A DNA stretch of 64,000 nt from Afipia sp. (GTDB lineage Bacteria; Pseudomonadota; Alphaproteobacteria; Rhizobiales; Xanthobacteraceae), in contig JAFVHU010000071.1 of assembly GCA_017474385.1 (NCBI GenBank), positions 1-64,000 on the forward strand. The letters are read 5' to 3'. The first letter of the stretch is position 1. Each line of letters opens with the position of its first letter. Positions 5,164 through 45,909 of this stretch are shown piece after piece. The notes under the pieces are model-generated. The model ran no database searches. It saw only the letters and a program-made list of their open reading frames with translations, and had not been told where the DNA came from. The position numbers and the translations under genes are program-made.

Positions 5164-5955
5164 TCAGACAATCTTGATCGACATATCCGGCAAGCCCTCC
5201 AGTTTGCAGAGTATGACGTCATCCTTCACCACGGGACCAACATTCTCCGGCGTGCCGGAATAGATGATGTCGCCGGCTTTCAATTCGCAGGCTTCAGACA
5301 GCTTCGAGATTTGTTCAGCCACGCTCCAGATCATATTGCTGAGGTCGGAGCTCTGCTTCACCGTTCCGTTCACCGCAAGCGAGATCGCGCCTTTGGCAAA
5401 ATGGCCGGTCTTGGTCACCGGGTGAATCGGGCCAAGCACAGCGGAATTATCGAAGCTCTTGCCGATTTCCCACGGTTTCTTCTGGTCACCCATTGCACGC
5501 TGAAGATCGCGGCGGGTCATATCGAGACCGAGCGCGTAACCGTAAACGCAATCGAGCGCCTTCTCCGGCGAAATGTTGGATCCGCCAGATTTCAGCGCGG
5601 CCACCAGTTCGACTTCATAGTGATAGTTCTTGGTCAGCGGCGGATACGGATGGTCACCGACCGTTCCGATCGCGACGTTCTGGATCGCGTCCGTCGGCTT
5701 CTGGAAAAAGAACGGCGGCTCCCGCGTCGGATCGGATCCCATCTCGCGCGCATGCGCCGCGTAGTTGCGGCCGATGCAATAGATGCGGCGGACCGGGAAA
5801 ACCTCTTTCAGGCCGACGATGGGAATCGTCGCCTGTGCGACGGGGAAAACCGCCTTCAGGCCAATCTCGGCGTCTGCGGTCTCGCCGAGTGCTGCCGTAC
5901 CGGCAAGGGCTGCCGCTCCGCCAGCCAGGATGTTTCTGCGGTTGAATTCGGTCAT
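5164..5955 (-). CDS. Tat-exported fumarylacetoacetate hydrolase family protein
   Basis: 263 residues starting at the ATG at 5955, which has a GGGAAA ribosome-binding site. Residues 1-30 form a twin-arginine signal (NRRNILAGG, then an Ala/Gly-rich stretch). The rest is an FAH C-terminal-type domain: IYCIGRNYAAHAREMG, then FFFQKP, then the acidic metal site in YHYEVELVAAL, and GDIIYSGTPENVGP near the end. FAH enzymes cleave C-C bonds or decarboxylate acylpyruvates using Mg/Mn, normally in the cytoplasm, so export is unusual. The linker after the signal contains a direct repeat, GLKAVFPV (32-39) and GLKEVFPV (48-55), encoded by two 48-bp-spaced copies. Substrate unknown. Confidence 0.85.
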   Translation of the reverse strand: MTEFNRRNILAGGAAALAGTAALGETADAEIGLKAVFPVAQATIPIVGLKEVFPVRRIYCIGRNYAAHAREMGSDPTREPPFFFQKPTDAIQNVAIGTVGDHPYPPLTKNYHYEVELVAALKSGGSNISPEKALDCVYGYALGLDMTRRDLQRAMGDQKKPWEIGKSFDNSAVLGPIHPVTKTGHFAKGAISLAVNGTVKQSSDLSNMIWSVAEQISKLSEACELKAGDIIYSGTPENVGPVVKDDVILCKLEGLPDMSIKIV

Positions 5956-6110
5956 GGTCGTTTCCCGTTTGCTTTGTTGGCTTTGGCGCACTTGCCACTC
6001 GTTAACTCGCGGCAGCGAACAATGGTTCGGAAGCGCTGGTATTTTGTATGCCGGAGACGGTTGTTTGAACAGAGGTCTCGTACGTAAACGTTGGTGTGCG
6101 GCGCAACGAA

Positions 6111-6135
6111 AAAGGCCCGCCAATGGCGGGCCTTT
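6111..6135 (-). terminator. Terminator of the DUF3597 gene
   Basis: 11-bp perfect inverted repeat (6111-6121 with 6125-6135, loop AAT), GC-rich core. On the minus strand it ends in CCTTTTTCG. It lies 26 bases after the DUF3597 stop codon. Confidence 0.8.
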
Positions 6136-6161
6136 CCAAATCCGGCGCGAGGCCGCCGGTG

Positions 6162-6527
6162 TTAGTGCTTCAGATCGTCCGGCAGCTTGCCGCCGTTCGC
6201 CGCAAGCTTGGTCATGACCTGCTTGTGCAGCCAGATATTCATCTTGGCCGAGTCGCTGGTGTCGCCGTCGTACTTCAATTCTTTCGCAAGCTCCTTGCGA
6301 GCGCCCAGGCTTGAATCTATGTCGAGGGCCTTCATCAGGTCCACGATCGACGTGCGCCACTCGAGCTTTTCACCCTTGGCAGCAACGGCCTTGTCGAGAA
6401 TCGGCGCGACATCCACCATCGGCACGCTAGCGCCACCGCCTGCAGCCGATCCAGCACCGCCGGCGGGCTCAGCCGCGTCGGCCTTAGTGCCGAAAATCGC
6501 GCCCATGATCTTTCCAAAAATGCTCAT
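6162..6527 (-). CDS. DUF3597 domain protein
   Basis: 121 residues. The N-terminus MSIFGKIMGAIFG is typical of DUF3597 proteins. It is followed by a Gly/Ala-rich linker (residues 20-33) and a helical domain (VDVAPILDKAVAAKGEKLEW...LMKALDIDSS...ELAKELKYDGD) that resembles a small LysM-independent peptidoglycan- or stress-associated module. Function is not known. The ATG at 6527 has a GGGAG ribosome-binding site; a longer reading frame upstream lacks one. Monocistronic, closed by its own terminator. Confidence 0.8.
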   Translation of the reverse strand: MSIFGKIMGAIFGTKADAAEPAGGAGSAAGGGASVPMVDVAPILDKAVAAKGEKLEWRTSIVDLMKALDIDSSLGARKELAKELKYDGDTSDSAKMNIWLHKQVMTKLAANGGKLPDDLKH

Positions 6528-7840: not shown

Positions 7841-8677
7841 ATGTTCGCAACAGGCGTTCAAATGACCGTTGGTTTGCTCCCACGCGTGGCTTTCGCCGCT
7901 TTCATTTTCCTTGTCCCTGCTTCGCATGCATCGGCTGCGACGTGCGGCGCCGGCAGTTTCGAAAGCTGGCTCGATAACTTCCGAAAGGAAGCTGCGGCGG
8001 AAGGAATTTCCCAACAGGCGATCTCGCAGGGGCTGAACGGCGTCACCCTCGACAACACAGTCCTCTCACGTGACCGATCGCAGCACGTCTTTCGCCAGAG
8101 CTTTGAGGAATTTTCCGGCCGGATGGTGCCGCCGCGGTTGGCGGCGGGCGCCAACAAGATGAAACAGTTCGGCTCAGTATTGTCCCGCATTGAACAGCGC
8201 TATGGCGTCCCGGGCTCGGTTCTCGTCGCGATCTGGGGGCTGGAGACGGACTACGGCGTCAACATCGGAAAATTTCCGACCATCCGTTCGGTCGCAACGC
8301 TCGCTTATGATTGCCGCCGTTCCGAAATGTTTCGCGCGGAGTTGAAGGATGCCCTGCGCATTGTCGATCAGGGCGATCTGTCGCCCGCAGACATGCGCGG
8401 TGCATGGGCCGGCGAAATCGGGCAAACGCAGTTCATGCCGTCATCCTACATCAAATTTGCCGTCGACTTCGACGGCAACGGACGGCGCGACCTGCTGCGA
8501 AGCGCCCCCGATGTTTTGGCGTCGACCGCGAATTTCCTCGCCAGTCATGGCTGGAAGCGTGGTCAGCCATGGGATCCCGGCAGCGAGAACTTCGCGGTGA
8601 TCCAGCAGTGGAATAAGAGCGAGGTCTATTCGAAGACGATCGCCTATTTCGCGAGCCAACTCGACCGCGCGCCTTGA
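7841..8677 (+). CDS. Lytic murein transglycosylase (MltB/SLT family 3 type)
   Basis: 278 residues with an N-terminal signal peptide ending near ASHASA; a second in-frame ATG at 7862 gives a tidier signal and may be the true start. The catalytic Glu lies in IWGLETDYG, followed by GEIGQTQFMPSSYIKFA and the DFDGNGRRDL segment, all typical of MltB-type transglycosylases, which cleave the MurNAc-GlcNAc bond and form 1,6-anhydroMurNAc in the periplasm. The C-terminal peptidoglycan-binding domain found in many relatives is absent. It lies 59 bases downstream of the patatin gene and is possibly co-transcribed with it. Confidence 0.92.
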   Translation: MFATGVQMTVGLLPRVAFAAFIFLVPASHASAATCGAGSFESWLDNFRKEAAAEGISQQAISQGLNGVTLDNTVLSRDRSQHVFRQSFEEFSGRMVPPRLAAGANKMKQFGSVLSRIEQRYGVPGSVLVAIWGLETDYGVNIGKFPTIRSVATLAYDCRRSEMFRAELKDALRIVDQGDLSPADMRGAWAGEIGQTQFMPSSYIKFAVDFDGNGRRDLLRSAPDVLASTANFLASHGWKRGQPWDPGSENFAVIQQWNKSEVYSKTIAYFASQLDRAP

Positions 8678-8700
8678 TGCGGCAGTGTGACTGCCGCATC
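8676..8700. terminator. Hairpin between convergent transglycosylase and copper genes
   Basis: 10-bp perfect inverted repeat (8676-8685 with 8691-8700) beginning within the TGA of the transglycosylase. It has no T tract but stands between converging transcripts. Confidence 0.5.
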
Positions 8701-8716
8701 ACGATGTCCCTGGCTA

Positions 8717-9754
8717 TTAGTGCTTGTGAGCCGGCTCGCCGGTTGCCCCCATCGCATTGACGTCGAAACTGACATCGAGCTTGCCCGCCTTTTCGAACGT
8801 CAGCGTGGCTTTCAGCTTGTCGCCCTGCTTCAGCGGCTGCTTGATGTCCATGAACATCATGTGCAAGCCGCCGGGCTTCAGTTCGACCGTCTCGCCGGGC
8901 TTGATCGTCAGGCCGTCAGCCAGCGGCCGCATCTTCATCACGCCGTCGGTCATCGACATCTCGTGAATCTCGACGCGGTCCGCACCAGCCGAGATTGCGC
9001 TGACAAGGCGGTCTGGAGATTTGCCGGTATTAGTGATCTTGAGATAACCGCCGGCGATCTTGGCGCCGCCCGGCGTCGCGCGCGTCCATGGCGCGGCGAC
9101 GATCAGATCACCGGCCTTCAAGGTATCACTGCCCGACTGGGGCGCTGCGGGCGCCGCCATCTTCCCGTGATCCATCTGGCTGTGATCCATCTGCGCCTGC
9201 GCAACTGTGGCGTTGTCAGCAACGATCCGCAGCGTAGGAGCCGGCGATTTCAGGCTGTGCGGATTCTGCCCTTCCGACGCGATCTGATCCCAGCGAACCT
9301 CACCCTTGGCACATTGCTGAGTGGTTGGGAAAGTGATCGCCTGCCCCGAAGGAAAATCCGTAATGAAACTGGTGAAGACGAACTCGTCATAGTTATCGTC
9401 CGCCAGCGATCCGCCCGACCAGACGATCTCCTTCGGACCTTCCGCAACGGTCTTGCCATGGCTCTGGTATGACTTGGCGTACGCGCCACGCGTGATGCTG
9501 AGTGTCCATCCCGCCTTCGGCATCGGCTTTACGCCGATGACGCCTTCCGGGATCTGGATACGGACGGTTTGAGTGGCCGCGCCGTCGCAGCCGTGAGGCA
9601 CCTGGAACACTGCCTTGTAGTACGTGTTGGCGCGCGCCTCTCCGGTCGCGAGCGTCACGTGGGCGAATGAAGGTGATTGCGAAGCGATGACAGCCGTTGC
9701 GGCCAGGCCAGCGCCGGTCAGCAGCCGCTGAAGGCCGCGGAAGTTGATGATCAT
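8717..9754 (-). CDS. YcnI (DUF1775) - PCu(A)C fusion, periplasmic copper-handling protein
   Basis: 345 residues. A signal peptide should be cut after SFA (residue 31), leaving His32 (HVTL) as the mature N-terminus. That is the copper-binding first residue of YcnI domains, which run to about residue 180. A Met/His linker (QMDHSQMDHGKM, 189-199) follows, then a PCu(A)C domain with H264, M266, M275, H298 and M300, close to the H-x10-M-x21-H-x-M copper motif. The tail PAHKH adds two more His. Both domains are known copper-binding periplasmic modules; fusion suggests relay or delivery, for example to cytochrome oxidase. Good ribosome-binding site. The DUF2946 gene is directly upstream. Confidence 0.9.
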   Translation of the reverse strand: MIINFRGLQRLLTGAGLAATAVIASQSPSFAHVTLATGEARANTYYKAVFQVPHGCDGAATQTVRIQIPEGVIGVKPMPKAGWTLSITRGAYAKSYQSHGKTVAEGPKEIVWSGGSLADDNYDEFVFTSFITDFPSGQAITFPTTQQCAKGEVRWDQIASEGQNPHSLKSPAPTLRIVADNATVAQAQMDHSQMDHGKMAAPAAPQSGSDTLKAGDLIVAAPWTRATPGGAKIAGGYLKITNTGKSPDRLVSAISAGADRVEIHEMSMTDGVMKMRPLADGLTIKPGETVELKPGGLHMMFMDIKQPLKQGDKLKATLTFEKAGKLDVSFDVNAMGATGEPAHKH

Positions 9755-25944: not shown

Positions 25945-27441
25945 TTATTGTTCCTTCGCGATCACTTTGAGGCCGCCCATATACGGCTGCAACACATCCG
26001 GCACGGCGATTGAGCCGTCTTCCTGCTGATAGGTTTCCATCACGGCGATCAGGGCGCGGCCAACCGCCGTGCCCGAGCCAATCAGCGTATGCACGAAGCG
26101 CGGCTTGCCGTCCGGTCCGCGCGAGCGCGCGTCCATGCGCCGTGCCTGGAAGTCGCCGCACACCGAGCATGAGGAGATCTCGCGATACATGCCACCCTCA
26201 CCCTGACTCGATATTTGTCCCGGCATCCAGACCTCGATGTCGTAGGTCTTTTGTGACGCGAAGCCCATGTCGCCGGTGCACAGCGTCATGACGCGGTAAT
26301 GCAGATCGAGCTTTTTCAGAACCTCTTCGGCGCAGGACAGCATGCGCTCGTGTTCGTTCTTCGACTCTTCCGGCGTCGTGATCGACACCAGTTCGACCTT
26401 GGTGAACTGATGCTGGCGGATCATGCCGCGCGTATCGCGCCCCGCCGCACCCGCTTCCGCGCGGAAGCACGGCGTCAGCGCGGTGAGACGCATCGGCAGT
26501 TCTTTTTCGTCGAGAATGGATTCGCGAACGAGATTGGTCAGCGGCACTTCGGCGGTGGGGATGAGCCAGAGCTTTTCAAGCATATCATACTTTTCAATGT
26601 CTGAGCCGCTCCCTTGATACGTACCTGCTTCAAAAGGATTATTTTGCAGCCACTCTTCAAATCCTGAGTTTTGTCCAGGGTGCTTTGCTTGGAAAAGCTC
26701 ATTTGCTCGCGCAAAAAAGGTTAGCTGCGCTTTCGCCATATCTTGAAGAAAATCATCAAATGTTTTGCGCTTCGCAGTTGCAAATTGATCATCCGCGAAC
26801 TTCGGCAACTGCGCCGTTCCGAACATCGCGTCATCGCGCACCAGCAGCGGTGGATTGACTTCGGTGTAGCCGTGCTCCCCGGTGTGCAGATCGAGCATGA
26901 ATTGCCCGATGGCGCGCTCCAGCCGCGCGAGGCCCTTCTTCAAAACGACGAAGCGCGCGCCGGACATTTTGGCAGCCGCCTCGAAGTCCATGAACTTCAG
27001 ACCTTCGCCAAGCTCCACATGCTCCTTCGGCTTGAACGCATAATTGCGCTTCGCGCCGAAGTGATGATGCTCGACATTGCCGTGCTCGTCGGCGCCGTCC
27101 GGCACCTCATCGAGCGGCAGGTTCGGAATCTGCGCGAGTTCTTTCTTCAGTTCCTCTTCGACCTGCTTCACCGTCGCTTCAAGCTCGGGAAGCTTTGTCT
27201 TGAGTTCGCCAACCTCGGCCATCAGCGCATCTGCGCGCGCATTGTCCTTGTTCTTCTTGGCGTCGCCGATTTCCTTGGAGGCCGCGTTGCGGCGCGCCTG
27301 CGCCTGCTCCGATGCCAGGATGGCCGTGCGGCGCTTCTCGTCGAGCGCGATCAGCGGCTTCGACAGCGGCTCCAGCCCGCGCCGTTTCAGCGCTGCGTCG
27401 AAGGCGTCGGGGTTGTCGCGAATGGCCTTGATGTCATGCAT
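25945..27441 (-). CDS. serS: Seryl-tRNA synthetase with an unusual internal insert
   Basis: Charges tRNA-Ser. The N-terminal coiled-coil arm (about 30-110) binds the long variable arm of the tRNA. The class II catalytic core carries the serine-binding [12 protein letters not shown], motif 2 ([15 protein letters not shown]) and motif 3 ([14 protein letters not shown]). At 498 residues it is longer than the usual about 430. The excess is mainly one insert between [10 protein letters not shown] and LWLIPTAEV: 72 residues where E. coli has about 17. The insert DNA is much less GC-rich than the rest (76 of 180 bases, 42%, at 26581-26760, against 39 of 60 at 26881-26940). The frame is intact, so the enzyme should work. 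Confidence 0.95.
26575..26783 (-). other. AT-rich in-frame island inside serS
   Basis: About 70 codons encoding a largely helical, charged segment ([20 protein letters not shown], then [15 protein letters not shown] and [14 protein letters not shown]) placed just before the TxE serine-binding loop. Base composition (42% GC) and codon choice differ sharply from the flanks. It looks like a foreign or horizontally exchanged segment that has kept the reading frame. No intein splice residues and no clear palindrome at its ends were seen. Confidence 0.7.
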
Positions 27442-43806: not shown

Positions 43807-44940
43807 TCAAGCTCCGGCCTTGCGGCTGCGAGGCGCGGCGGGCGTGCCGTTGGACAGCAGCAATTGACCATCAACGACGATATCTTCTCCGCCTTCCAGA
43901 CCGCTGTCGATCACGGAAAAGCCCCGAAACGTGCGGCCGATGGTAACGGGCTGGACCTGCGCCTTGCCGTCGCGGATAACGAACACAAAGTTGCCGGTCT
44001 GGCTTCGCTGTACACCGACCGAAGGAACGATCACCGCATTCTCGGTTCGGACAGTGAGTGTGGTGTTGACCAGAATACCCGGCCACAGAAGCTCGTTGTC
44101 GTTGGCCATGATGCCGCGCACCGTCACCATGCCGGTGGTTGCGTCAACGGTATTCTCCACCATCGCAATTTTTCCGGTTTCCGACTTGCCGTTACCGGGG
44201 ATCGTCGCCGTCACTGACGACTGTCCATCCTTCATCGCGTCGCGCAGGTCACTCAAGACGCGCTGCGGAATTGCGAAGGTCACATACACGGGCGCCATCT
44301 GGTTGATGGTCGCAAGCGGCGACGTATCTGCCGGCCGGACGAAATTTCCGACCTTGACCGTGGCGGCGCTGATCCGACCGGTGATGGGGGCCGTGATCTT
44401 CGTATAACTTTTCTGAACTTTCAGATTGTCCAGAATGGCCTGATCGGCCTGAATGGTCGCGGTTGCGGTGTCCGCGGCGGTCTTTGCGTTGTCGACATTG
44501 ACCTGCGTGGTCGCGCCCTTGCCGATCAGTTCGTTGAAACGCCGCACATCGCGCTCGGCAGCGACGAGCTGCGATTGGGACCGTGCAAGATTGCCTTCCG
44601 CCTGTGCGATCTGCGCATCGATCTGGCGCGAATCCAGCGTGAACAGCAGATCGCCTGCCTTGACGCGGGCGCCGTCCTCGAAGTGAACCCCGACGATGGT
44701 GGTCTCGACGCGGGATTTCAGGGCCACGCTCGAAATCGGCGTGACCGCGCCGATTGAATCCACATCGAGTGGGACTGGTTTCTTTTCAGCCTTCGCGACT
44801 TCGACAGAGACCGCCTGAGGGCGCGGCGGAGTCTGGGCCGTGGTGGCGCCACTTGTCCACATCGATCGTGTCGCATAGAGCGCGACGGCTGCAATGACGA
44901 TGCCCGCGAGCAAAATGCGTCTGAAAAAATTTCCGCTCAT
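43807..44940 (-). CDS. RND efflux periplasmic adaptor (membrane fusion) protein
   Basis: 377 residues. An N-terminal signal anchor (ILLAGIVIAAVALYAT) is followed by the barrel-sandwich lipoyl-like halves around residues 70-100 and 185-220, with a coiled-coil hairpin between them (AQAEGNLARSQSQLVAAERD) and a beta-barrel domain. It links the RND pump to an outer-membrane channel. First gene of the adaptor-pump-amidohydrolase operon; divergent from xthA across a 183-bp spacer that should hold both promoters. Confidence 0.93.
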   Translation of the reverse strand: MSGNFFRRILLAGIVIAAVALYATRSMWTSGATTAQTPPRPQAVSVEVAKAEKKPVPLDVDSIGAVTPISSVALKSRVETTIVGVHFEDGARVKAGDLLFTLDSRQIDAQIAQAEGNLARSQSQLVAAERDVRRFNELIGKGATTQVNVDNAKTAADTATATIQADQAILDNLKVQKSYTKITAPITGRISAATVKVGNFVRPADTSPLATINQMAPVYVTFAIPQRVLSDLRDAMKDGQSSVTATIPGNGKSETGKIAMVENTVDATTGMVTVRGIMANDNELLWPGILVNTTLTVRTENAVIVPSVGVQRSQTGNFVFVIRDGKAQVQPVTIGRTFRGFSVIDSGLEGGEDIVVDGQLLLSNGTPAAPRSRKAGA

Positions 44941-45123
44941 GCCGTCTCTCAGGTTCAGGATTCAGGCTGCGCAAAACACGCCAAACAGCCGCCGTTTCCC
45001 CAACCCCATAGTGCTGGTTTTCCAGCGTTAATTTGTATTCGGCTTATCACAGCCGCACCGCCCGTGGTACGGCATACGGGTGGATTCTTTCGAATAATGC
45101 CCACGTCACTAACGGAATTGGAC

Positions 45124-45909
45124 ATGCGGATCGCCACCTGGAACGTTAACTCTATCCGACAGCGGCTCGATCATCTGCTGACGTGGCTCAAGGAACGGTC
45201 CCCGGACATCGTCTGTCTGCAGGAAATCAAATGCGTGGACGAGGCGTTTCCGCGCGAGCCGATCGAGGCGCTCGGCTACAACGTGGTGACCCACGGCCAG
45301 AAGACATTCAACGGCGTGGCGCTCCTCTCGAAGTACCGGTTCGACGAAACCACGCCGCGCCTGGGCGGAGACGCCGAAGACCTGCACGCCCGCTTTCTTG
45401 AAGGCGTGATGTCGCATGCGAACGGCACGCTGCGGATCGCCTGCCTGTATCTGCCCAACGGCAACCCGCCGGAAACCGATAAATATCCGTATAAAATCAA
45501 ATGGATGGACAGGCTTCTTCAGTACTCGAAAGAGCGCATGAAGGGAGAGCAGCCGCTGGTGCTGGCGGGCGATTTCAACGTCATTCCCGCCAACGGTGAC
45601 GTCTACAATCCCGCCGCCTGGGCGAACGACGCGCTGTTTCTGCCGAAGACGCGCGAGCGCTTTCGCGCCCTGCTCAACCTCGGCCTGACCGACGCGATCC
45701 GCGCGGTTTCGGATCAGCCCGGCCAATATACGTTCTGGGATTATCAGGCCGGCGCGTGGCCGAAGAACAACGGCATCCGGATCGACCACCTGCTGCTGTC
45801 GCCGCAGGCAAGCGACCGGCTGCTCGATGCCGGGATCGATCGCTACGTCAGGGGATGGGAAAAGGCGTCAGATCACGTTCCGGTGTGGATCGATCTGGAT
45901 CTGAACTAA
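45124..45909 (+). CDS. xthA: Exodeoxyribonuclease III (AP endonuclease)
   Basis: 261 residues from the ATG at 45124, which gives the conserved start MRIATWNVNSIRQR. Catalytic residues lie in LQEIK, GDFNVIP and the final SDHVPVW. The enzyme cuts at abasic sites and trims 3' blocks in base excision repair using Mg2+. Upstream in-frame ATGs (45064, 45097) add no conserved sequence. Ends convergent with the exoR-like gene. Confidence 0.95.
   Translation: MRIATWNVNSIRQRLDHLLTWLKERSPDIVCLQEIKCVDEAFPREPIEALGYNVVTHGQKTFNGVALLSKYRFDETTPRLGGDAEDLHARFLEGVMSHANGTLRIACLYLPNGNPPETDKYPYKIKWMDRLLQYSKERMKGEQPLVLAGDFNVIPANGDVYNPAAWANDALFLPKTRERFRALLNLGLTDAIRAVSDQPGQYTFWDYQAGAWPKNNGIRIDHLLLSPQASDRLLDAGIDRYVRGWEKASDHVPVWIDLDLN

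Follow-up and report, generated by a model that had tools for sequence, protein, structure and literature searches.

The gene at issue is serS, for seryl-tRNA synthetase (SerRS), on the minus strand of a 64-kb stretch of DNA from Afipia sp. (contig JAFVHU010000071.1; hereafter the window, meaning the whole stretch that was analysed), together with a segment set in frame within it that is rich in adenine and thymine (AT-rich). The list of open reading frames (ORFs) places serS at 25945-27441 (read from 27441 to 25945) with a product of 498 amino acids (aa). This protein matched the Pfam families PF02403 (105.3 bits, E = 2.5e-30, cut-off 28.2) and PF00587 (129.2 bits, E = 2.3e-37, cut-off 29.3), and it is a bacterial-type SerRS by its Seryl_tRNA_N and class II core domains, both of which exceed the Pfam cut-offs. 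One SerRS match was obtained in the host assembly (G000; 162 contigs, 84% complete). The features, with their content of guanine and cytosine (GC) where it matters, are as follows.

25945..27441, minus strand: serS, seryl-tRNA synthetase of 498 aa (ORF, Pfam, single match in the assembly)
26782..26811, minus strand: conserved upstream anchor; divergence from the near relative G014 is raised here and just upstream (flank comparison)
26569..26781, minus strand: AT-rich variable insert of 71 aa, ending YDMLEKL, between ADDQF and W, 43% GC (motif reading, comparison with relatives)
26548..26568, minus strand: conserved downstream anchor W-LIPTAE (loop reading, 6r1m coordinates)

The insert in the window gene

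The spacing from QLPKF to LIPTAE is 77 residues (26566-26796), and the variable part, from the conserved ADDQF to the conserved W, is 71 residues (26569-26781); the reading frame is open throughout, as an earlier note on this DNA, made from the sequence alone, had observed. That note had counted 72 residues before LIPTAEV, a figure that is reproduced with its own edges, and had set them against about 17 in E. coli SerRS, which is close to the 15 found with the same edges in PDB chain 6r1m, presumably the E. coli enzyme. By the coordinates of that chain, the insert lies between residues ~221 and 232. The TxE motif of the serine site falls within the downstream anchor.

The GC content is 43.2% at 26569-26781 and 42.6% at 26575-26783, and the 42% previously given for 26581-26760 is exact (76 of 180 bases). 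The surroundings are richer in GC, although the earlier figure of about 65% is slightly high, as the rest of serS has 61.7%, the 1.5-kb flanks 61.1% and the whole window 61.2%. The GC content of third codon positions (GC3) is 0.36 in the loop against 0.78 in the remainder of the gene.

Hypervariability of the site in the family

The earlier note saw a single insert; the real finding is the hypervariability of the site across the host family, whose nearest named relatives are Rhodopseudomonas and Bradyrhizobium. In the host genus (genomes G000-G028) the site holds at least 35 residues in 21 of 29 genomes and 18-20 residues in 8. The SerRS of the near relative G014 is 96% and 98% identical to that of the window on the two sides of the site, but has an 18-residue loop, RDDQFAAGSLDAEGQGYW. 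The earlier note would have regarded the same insert with host-like composition in all close relatives as ancestral; the site is indeed occupied in relatives, but by segments that differ and are mostly AT-shifted. Of 391 family genomes, 368 had a match to the loop-free G014 protein, in many cases broken in two. Further family loci were picked mainly for such broken matches, and the share of insert carriers among them is therefore not a frequency.

Elsewhere in the order, about 50 residues or more were present in 2 of the 23 genomes with a match (G049 and G051), loop lengths there being judged by eye from match coordinates and motif reading. Among 75 named loci the commonest loop length was 12 residues, and long loops also occur beyond the family genomes, for example in Brevundimonas (L132) and Rhodoblastus (L076). 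Five of the 80 named loci (L073, L085, L088, L123 and L129) and the genome loci L190, L198, L201, L202 and L322 were unfit for the motif search and were left out; L003, missed by the first loop pattern, was read in a later set, and loci that shared a serS centre were combined into one. Over all loci read, loops span 11-103 aa. The variable parts of long loops measure 31-97 residues (median 57) and have sharp edges, with xDDQF or a near variant before and W or LG after. Two genomes held two serS genes: G031, rated 6% contaminated, carries L046 and L049 with loops of 103 and 12 residues, and G051 has a divergent second copy at contig C28:4130-5413 (pieces of 42% and 29% identity) beside its main copy with a 53-residue loop.

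The pooled loci comprise 279 distinct SerRS sequences, 174 of them with a loop of at least 35 aa, and every segment is different. Clustering by phmmer (E < 1e-3) gave 109 groups, 84 of them singletons, and resampling of the groups reached no plateau. The window insert is a singleton by phmmer; when it is aligned with L007, L067 and L220, a common pattern is suggested at 19-28% identity. For pairs of loci, nucleotide identity was computed over 510 flanking bases without gaps, so that an indel lowers the value. Where flank identity was 95% or more, 8 of 10 pairs had segments of different groups; at 91-95%, all 56 pairs did. Replacement of the whole segment outpaces a divergence of about 5% in the flanking gene.

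As a control, the window ORFs were compared with the syntenic stretches of five same-genus genomes. For 51 of them a homologue was available in one or more of these stretches, and among the 51 serS alone had a long divergent internal stretch (29-61 residues) against all five relatives. The plus-strand ORF at 44758-45906 had divergent stretches of 26 and 70 residues in two of the five, and a few other ORFs had shorter ones.

The window protein also departs from its relatives outside the insert, reading LIGSG (ATT, Ile, at 26080-26082) in a stretch, presumably SerRS motif 3, that could be located in 275 SerRS and is LNGSG in 274 of them. The codon may be a consensus error; if real, it is a striking substitution of an otherwise shared residue. 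The gene is still named serS on its domains despite the missing Asn. A unique substitution of this kind, in an assembly fragmented into 162 contigs and 84% complete, is what might be cited for a chimera or contamination in the host genome. Independent genomes, however, carry dissimilar long segments at the same site, four of the same genus (G006, G012, G013 and G015) have theirs within one contig, the reading frame is intact and the flanks agree with those of the genus. We regard an artefact of assembly, which the earlier note had named as a way in which the island could be refuted, as very improbable.

Exchange, composition and constraint

Related segments recur in different genera. Group 0 was found in genera g1, g38, g39, g41, g47 and g58 and in the named Aquabacter (L065), and group 3 in g1, g67 and the named Ancylobacter (L071). 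A tree of the SerRS protein minus the insert was built with FastTree (203 rows, named loci left out), on which the 13 groups with at least three members (58 rows) require 33 changes, although 12 would be enough; for group 0, with nine tree members in six genera, the number is nine. The distribution of segments is incongruent with the backbone tree, though the scatter is less than random.

Exchange may also have marked the flank. Over the 30 nucleotides upstream of the segment, identity changed by -0.095 in 87 pairs with replaced segments and by -0.151 in 34 pairs with gain or loss, against -0.003 in seven short-loop pairs and -0.045 in five same-group pairs; these pairs share sequences and are hence non-independent, and their identities are ungapped. 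The downstream means were +0.004 (replaced), -0.011 (gain or loss), +0.016 (short-loop) and -0.038 (same-group). The upstream loss fades across about 90 bases. The final 60 bases ahead of the insert in the window gene have an identity of only 0.83 with G014, but of 0.93 with L177, which belongs to another genus. This upstream footprint is what short imported tracts would leave. The proposal of a segment recombined from another lineage, one of three made in the earlier note, thus stands as a process at this site, given the recurrence across genera and the footprint, although no donor of the window segment was found. The window insert had no match in plasmids, phages or viral contigs at the sensitivity used, and neither of two segment groups, which with the window insert were all that was searched there, matched a viral contig.

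With the SerRS protein as query, 100 plasmid records were obtained, all below 60% identity. Two of these, both uninformative on a donor, are an E. coli plasmid with a block of apparently chromosomal genes and the megaplasmid pANAM02 of Bosea sp. ANAM02 (692 kb). The latter carries serS at 8001-9302 (L349; 56% identity to the window protein) amid genes for hypothetical proteins; a gene for an aminoacyl-tRNA hydrolase lies about 3 kb from it. SerRS is also encoded on two contigs classed as viral, L346 and L347 (57% and 51% identity to the query), in one case near the contig end.

The median GC3 is 0.507 for the segments and 0.835 for the remainder of their genes, and in 167 of 174 the GC content lies below that of their own gene, an AT shift that would be expected of young imports. 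Host-like GC3 was found in a few genus-shared groups (L184/L226, L251/L254 and L277/L283), as expected if segments ameliorate with residence. Among the 38 homologous pairs listed (insert identity > 55%), the ratio of nonsynonymous to synonymous divergence (dN/dS) was 0.03-0.37 in the 18 with computable dS. Examples, given as dN/dS values, are L070/L288 (0.010/0.308), L021/L223 (0.023/0.169), L221/L280 (0.074/0.824) and L277/L283 (0.104/0.573), and the highest ratio is that of L185/L269 (0.357/0.980). Segment ratios are mostly, not always, above those of the flanks. On these values homologous segments are under purifying selection, which makes a new functional appendage, another of the earlier proposals, plausible. 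The hydrophobic fraction is 0.404 in the segments and 0.404 in the enzyme backbone, and 148 of 174 segments carry a net negative charge; judged by such composition, from which helix is also predicted, they look like folded acidic domains.

Possible origin and role of the segments

The remaining proposal of the earlier note was an in-frame mobile peptide element. The insert does resemble the Rickettsia palindromic elements, which are AT-rich extra peptides set in frame in housekeeping genes, in being in frame, AT-shifted and inside an essential aminoacyl-tRNA synthetase gene. Those elements, however, occur as repeated copies of one family per genome, whereas the serS insert gave a single match in the host assembly (84% complete) and, of the 296 family genomes searched, none in the remaining 295. 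Between species the segments are mostly dissimilar and have no sequence in common. This proposal has to be given up as scarcely credible. No Pfam intein match was obtained in the whole SerRS protein, and the insert has only 71 aa; an intein splicing domain takes roughly 130 aa or more. A diversity-generating retroelement target, which would show variable copies of one template differing at adenine-derived positions, does not fit, as segment lengths and sequences differ throughout.

The window insert had no match in Pfam, PHROGs or PDB sequences. The 109 group representatives gave only scattered weak matches, one member each, in Pfam, PHROGs and PADLOC (best E = 3e-4), and profiles of four segment groups found nothing convincing in the PDB (best E = 0.029). 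Searched against 249 genomes of the order, the profile of the largest group gave three weak matches, one in a SecA-like frame, which are taken as chance. No description of a hypervariable SerRS insert was found in the literature searched, which was mainly open-access, subscription journals and preprints lying mostly outside its scope.

One group of seven members (L022, L082, L098, L182, L228, L276 and L297) partly resembles the antitoxin VbhA (PF18495), with a best E of 1.3e-4 and E < 0.04 in five of the seven. Identity with VbhA was rejected, as the best score of 22.3 bits is below the curated cut-off of 25.9 and covers profile positions 23-47 of 47, the C-terminal half; the window insert had no VbhA match in Pfam. 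The partial match is nevertheless consistent with a role in which each segment docks or senses its own partner, for example as an antitoxin-like domain that neutralises a toxin or as a bait that changes the activity of SerRS when a phage protein touches it. Domains of antitoxins and sensors are diverse and move between genomes horizontally. Beyond the weakness of that match and of those to the other representatives, such a role is at odds with the neighbourhood of serS in the window, where the genes are conserved in the relatives and an evident partner was not found. We consider it improbable, though well ahead of a mobile element or an artefact.

The main rival account is a permissive site, at which the loop before the TxE motif takes in foreign DNA in frame by recombination and the segments then drift, selected only for being in frame, soluble and harmless. 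The segments are mostly unrelated and of no convincing known family, generically acidic and ordinary in hydrophobic content, all of which would suit this account. So would the insert of L222 (genome G315), which contains AHSRESGNPESKITGSPLARGRAEAG, presumably a translated dispersed proteobacterial repeat; at least this insert may have taken up a repeat element. Human SerRS has a lineage-specific insertion in its catalytic domain, insertion II (G254-N261), which lies close to the active site and plays a negligible part in aminoacylation (PMC10817482). It is short and described as a feature of higher eukaryotes (PMC10817482). It is apparently inherited, whereas the bacterial segments measure 31-97 aa, are mostly unrelated even between near species and are exchanged. 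Residues 254-261 of the human enzyme may lie at about the same place as the bacterial insert. A segment about here would then be tolerable, and a surface domain is plausible without loss of function.

Mere tolerance fits less well with serS being the only one of 51 window ORFs to have a long divergent stretch against all five relatives, or with related segments that persist across genera with conserved residues (dN/dS 0.03-0.37). Drift would also be expected to favour deletion to a short loop, but the site is filled in 21 of the 29 genomes of the genus. We regard a permissive site as unlikely on balance, while ranking it second, after an exchangeable shield and before a docking or sensing module.

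The pattern has partial counterparts among known systems. Type I restriction target-recognition domains and the hypervariable regions of surface proteins are swapped specificity modules, and they share with the serS segments many diverged alleles, one frame and exchange through conserved flanks. They belong to accessory or surface proteins under known antagonistic selection, whereas SerRS is a cytosolic essential enzyme whose antagonist is putative. Segmentally variable genes, treated in a paper that we take to be by Zheng, Roberts and Kasif, offer another comparison. The likeness is a conserved gene with a bounded variable segment, as in serS (PMC387263). The procedure there calls for variable regions with few gaps (GapC < 0.2) and its authors argue against repeated insertion of different sequences (PMC387263). 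The serS loops range from 11 to 103 aa and are mostly dissimilar, which, judged by lengths, is probably more gapped than that procedure allows.

The reading we favour, at a rough probability of 0.42, is that the window segment is one allele of a hypervariable, horizontally exchanged, folded surface domain set in the loop just ahead of the TxE motif, whose diversity most likely stems from an arms race with an attacker of SerRS. New segments would come in by recombination over short patches, with the conserved codons of QLPKF and LIPTAE as anchors. Each would fold, close to the active site, into a small acidic domain that is mostly helical and leaves aminoacylation intact. A protein antagonist, which might be a phage-encoded inhibitor, a delivered toxin or a modifying enzyme, would recognise the face of SerRS that bears the insert. 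A lineage with a new shape at that face would escape until the antagonist adapts, and the domain would thus act as an exchangeable steric shield. Rapid replacement of the whole domain, exchange between species and conservation while resident together suggest that the identity of the segment, and not its mere presence, is under changing selection. The pattern is there in the genomes; the attacker is what we infer from it.

Several results weigh against this reading. The analysis of these sequences found no antagonist, partner or phenotype. The minus-strand ORF at 5167-6369 has a divergent stretch of 10-33 residues in all four relatives that have the ORF, and the segment groups come from phmmer, so that better methods could merge some of them. 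Part of the signal on the tree is vertical: the 33 changes lie below all 200 shuffles (mean 43.6, range 39-48), and presence or absence of a segment takes 29 changes against a shuffled minimum of 32. With fewer changes than in the shuffles and more than the minimum, inheritance is part vertical, part horizontal. The same-group pairs (n = 5) dip too, by the -0.045 upstream and -0.038 downstream given above, and the upstream dip could partly reflect local co-adaptation. In the estimates of selection, dS was saturated in 20 of the 38 listed pairs, the flank values of a few pairs were spoilt by indels in the ungapped comparison, and purifying selection could mean only a need to avoid misfolding. 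Low cysteine (6 of 10411 segment residues), considered as a hallmark of the insert, is weakened by a similarly poor N-terminal half of SerRS (9 of 35260).

Aminoacyl-tRNA synthetases are usually treated as housekeeping enzymes that evolve slowly and keep their extra domains by descent for long periods. Here, across a bacterial family, SerRS replaces a whole small domain in less time than its gene takes to diverge by about 5%. It is possible, and we hold this more tentatively than the reading for the segment itself, that SerRS throughout the family draws on an open-ended, horizontally traded repertoire of shields against a widespread and undiscovered class of protein antagonists, either phage inhibitors or interbacterial toxins, with the loop marking the face under attack. 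If antagonistic selection is the cause, the segments would point to an unknown attack on SerRS and mark the place of binding. If the site is merely tolerant, they would amount to a library, supplied by nature, of small domains in about 100 dissimilar kinds accepted near one active site, for use in protein engineering and in the study of domain origin. Either way, the site makes testable both the origin of new small domains and selection for diversity inside essential enzymes.
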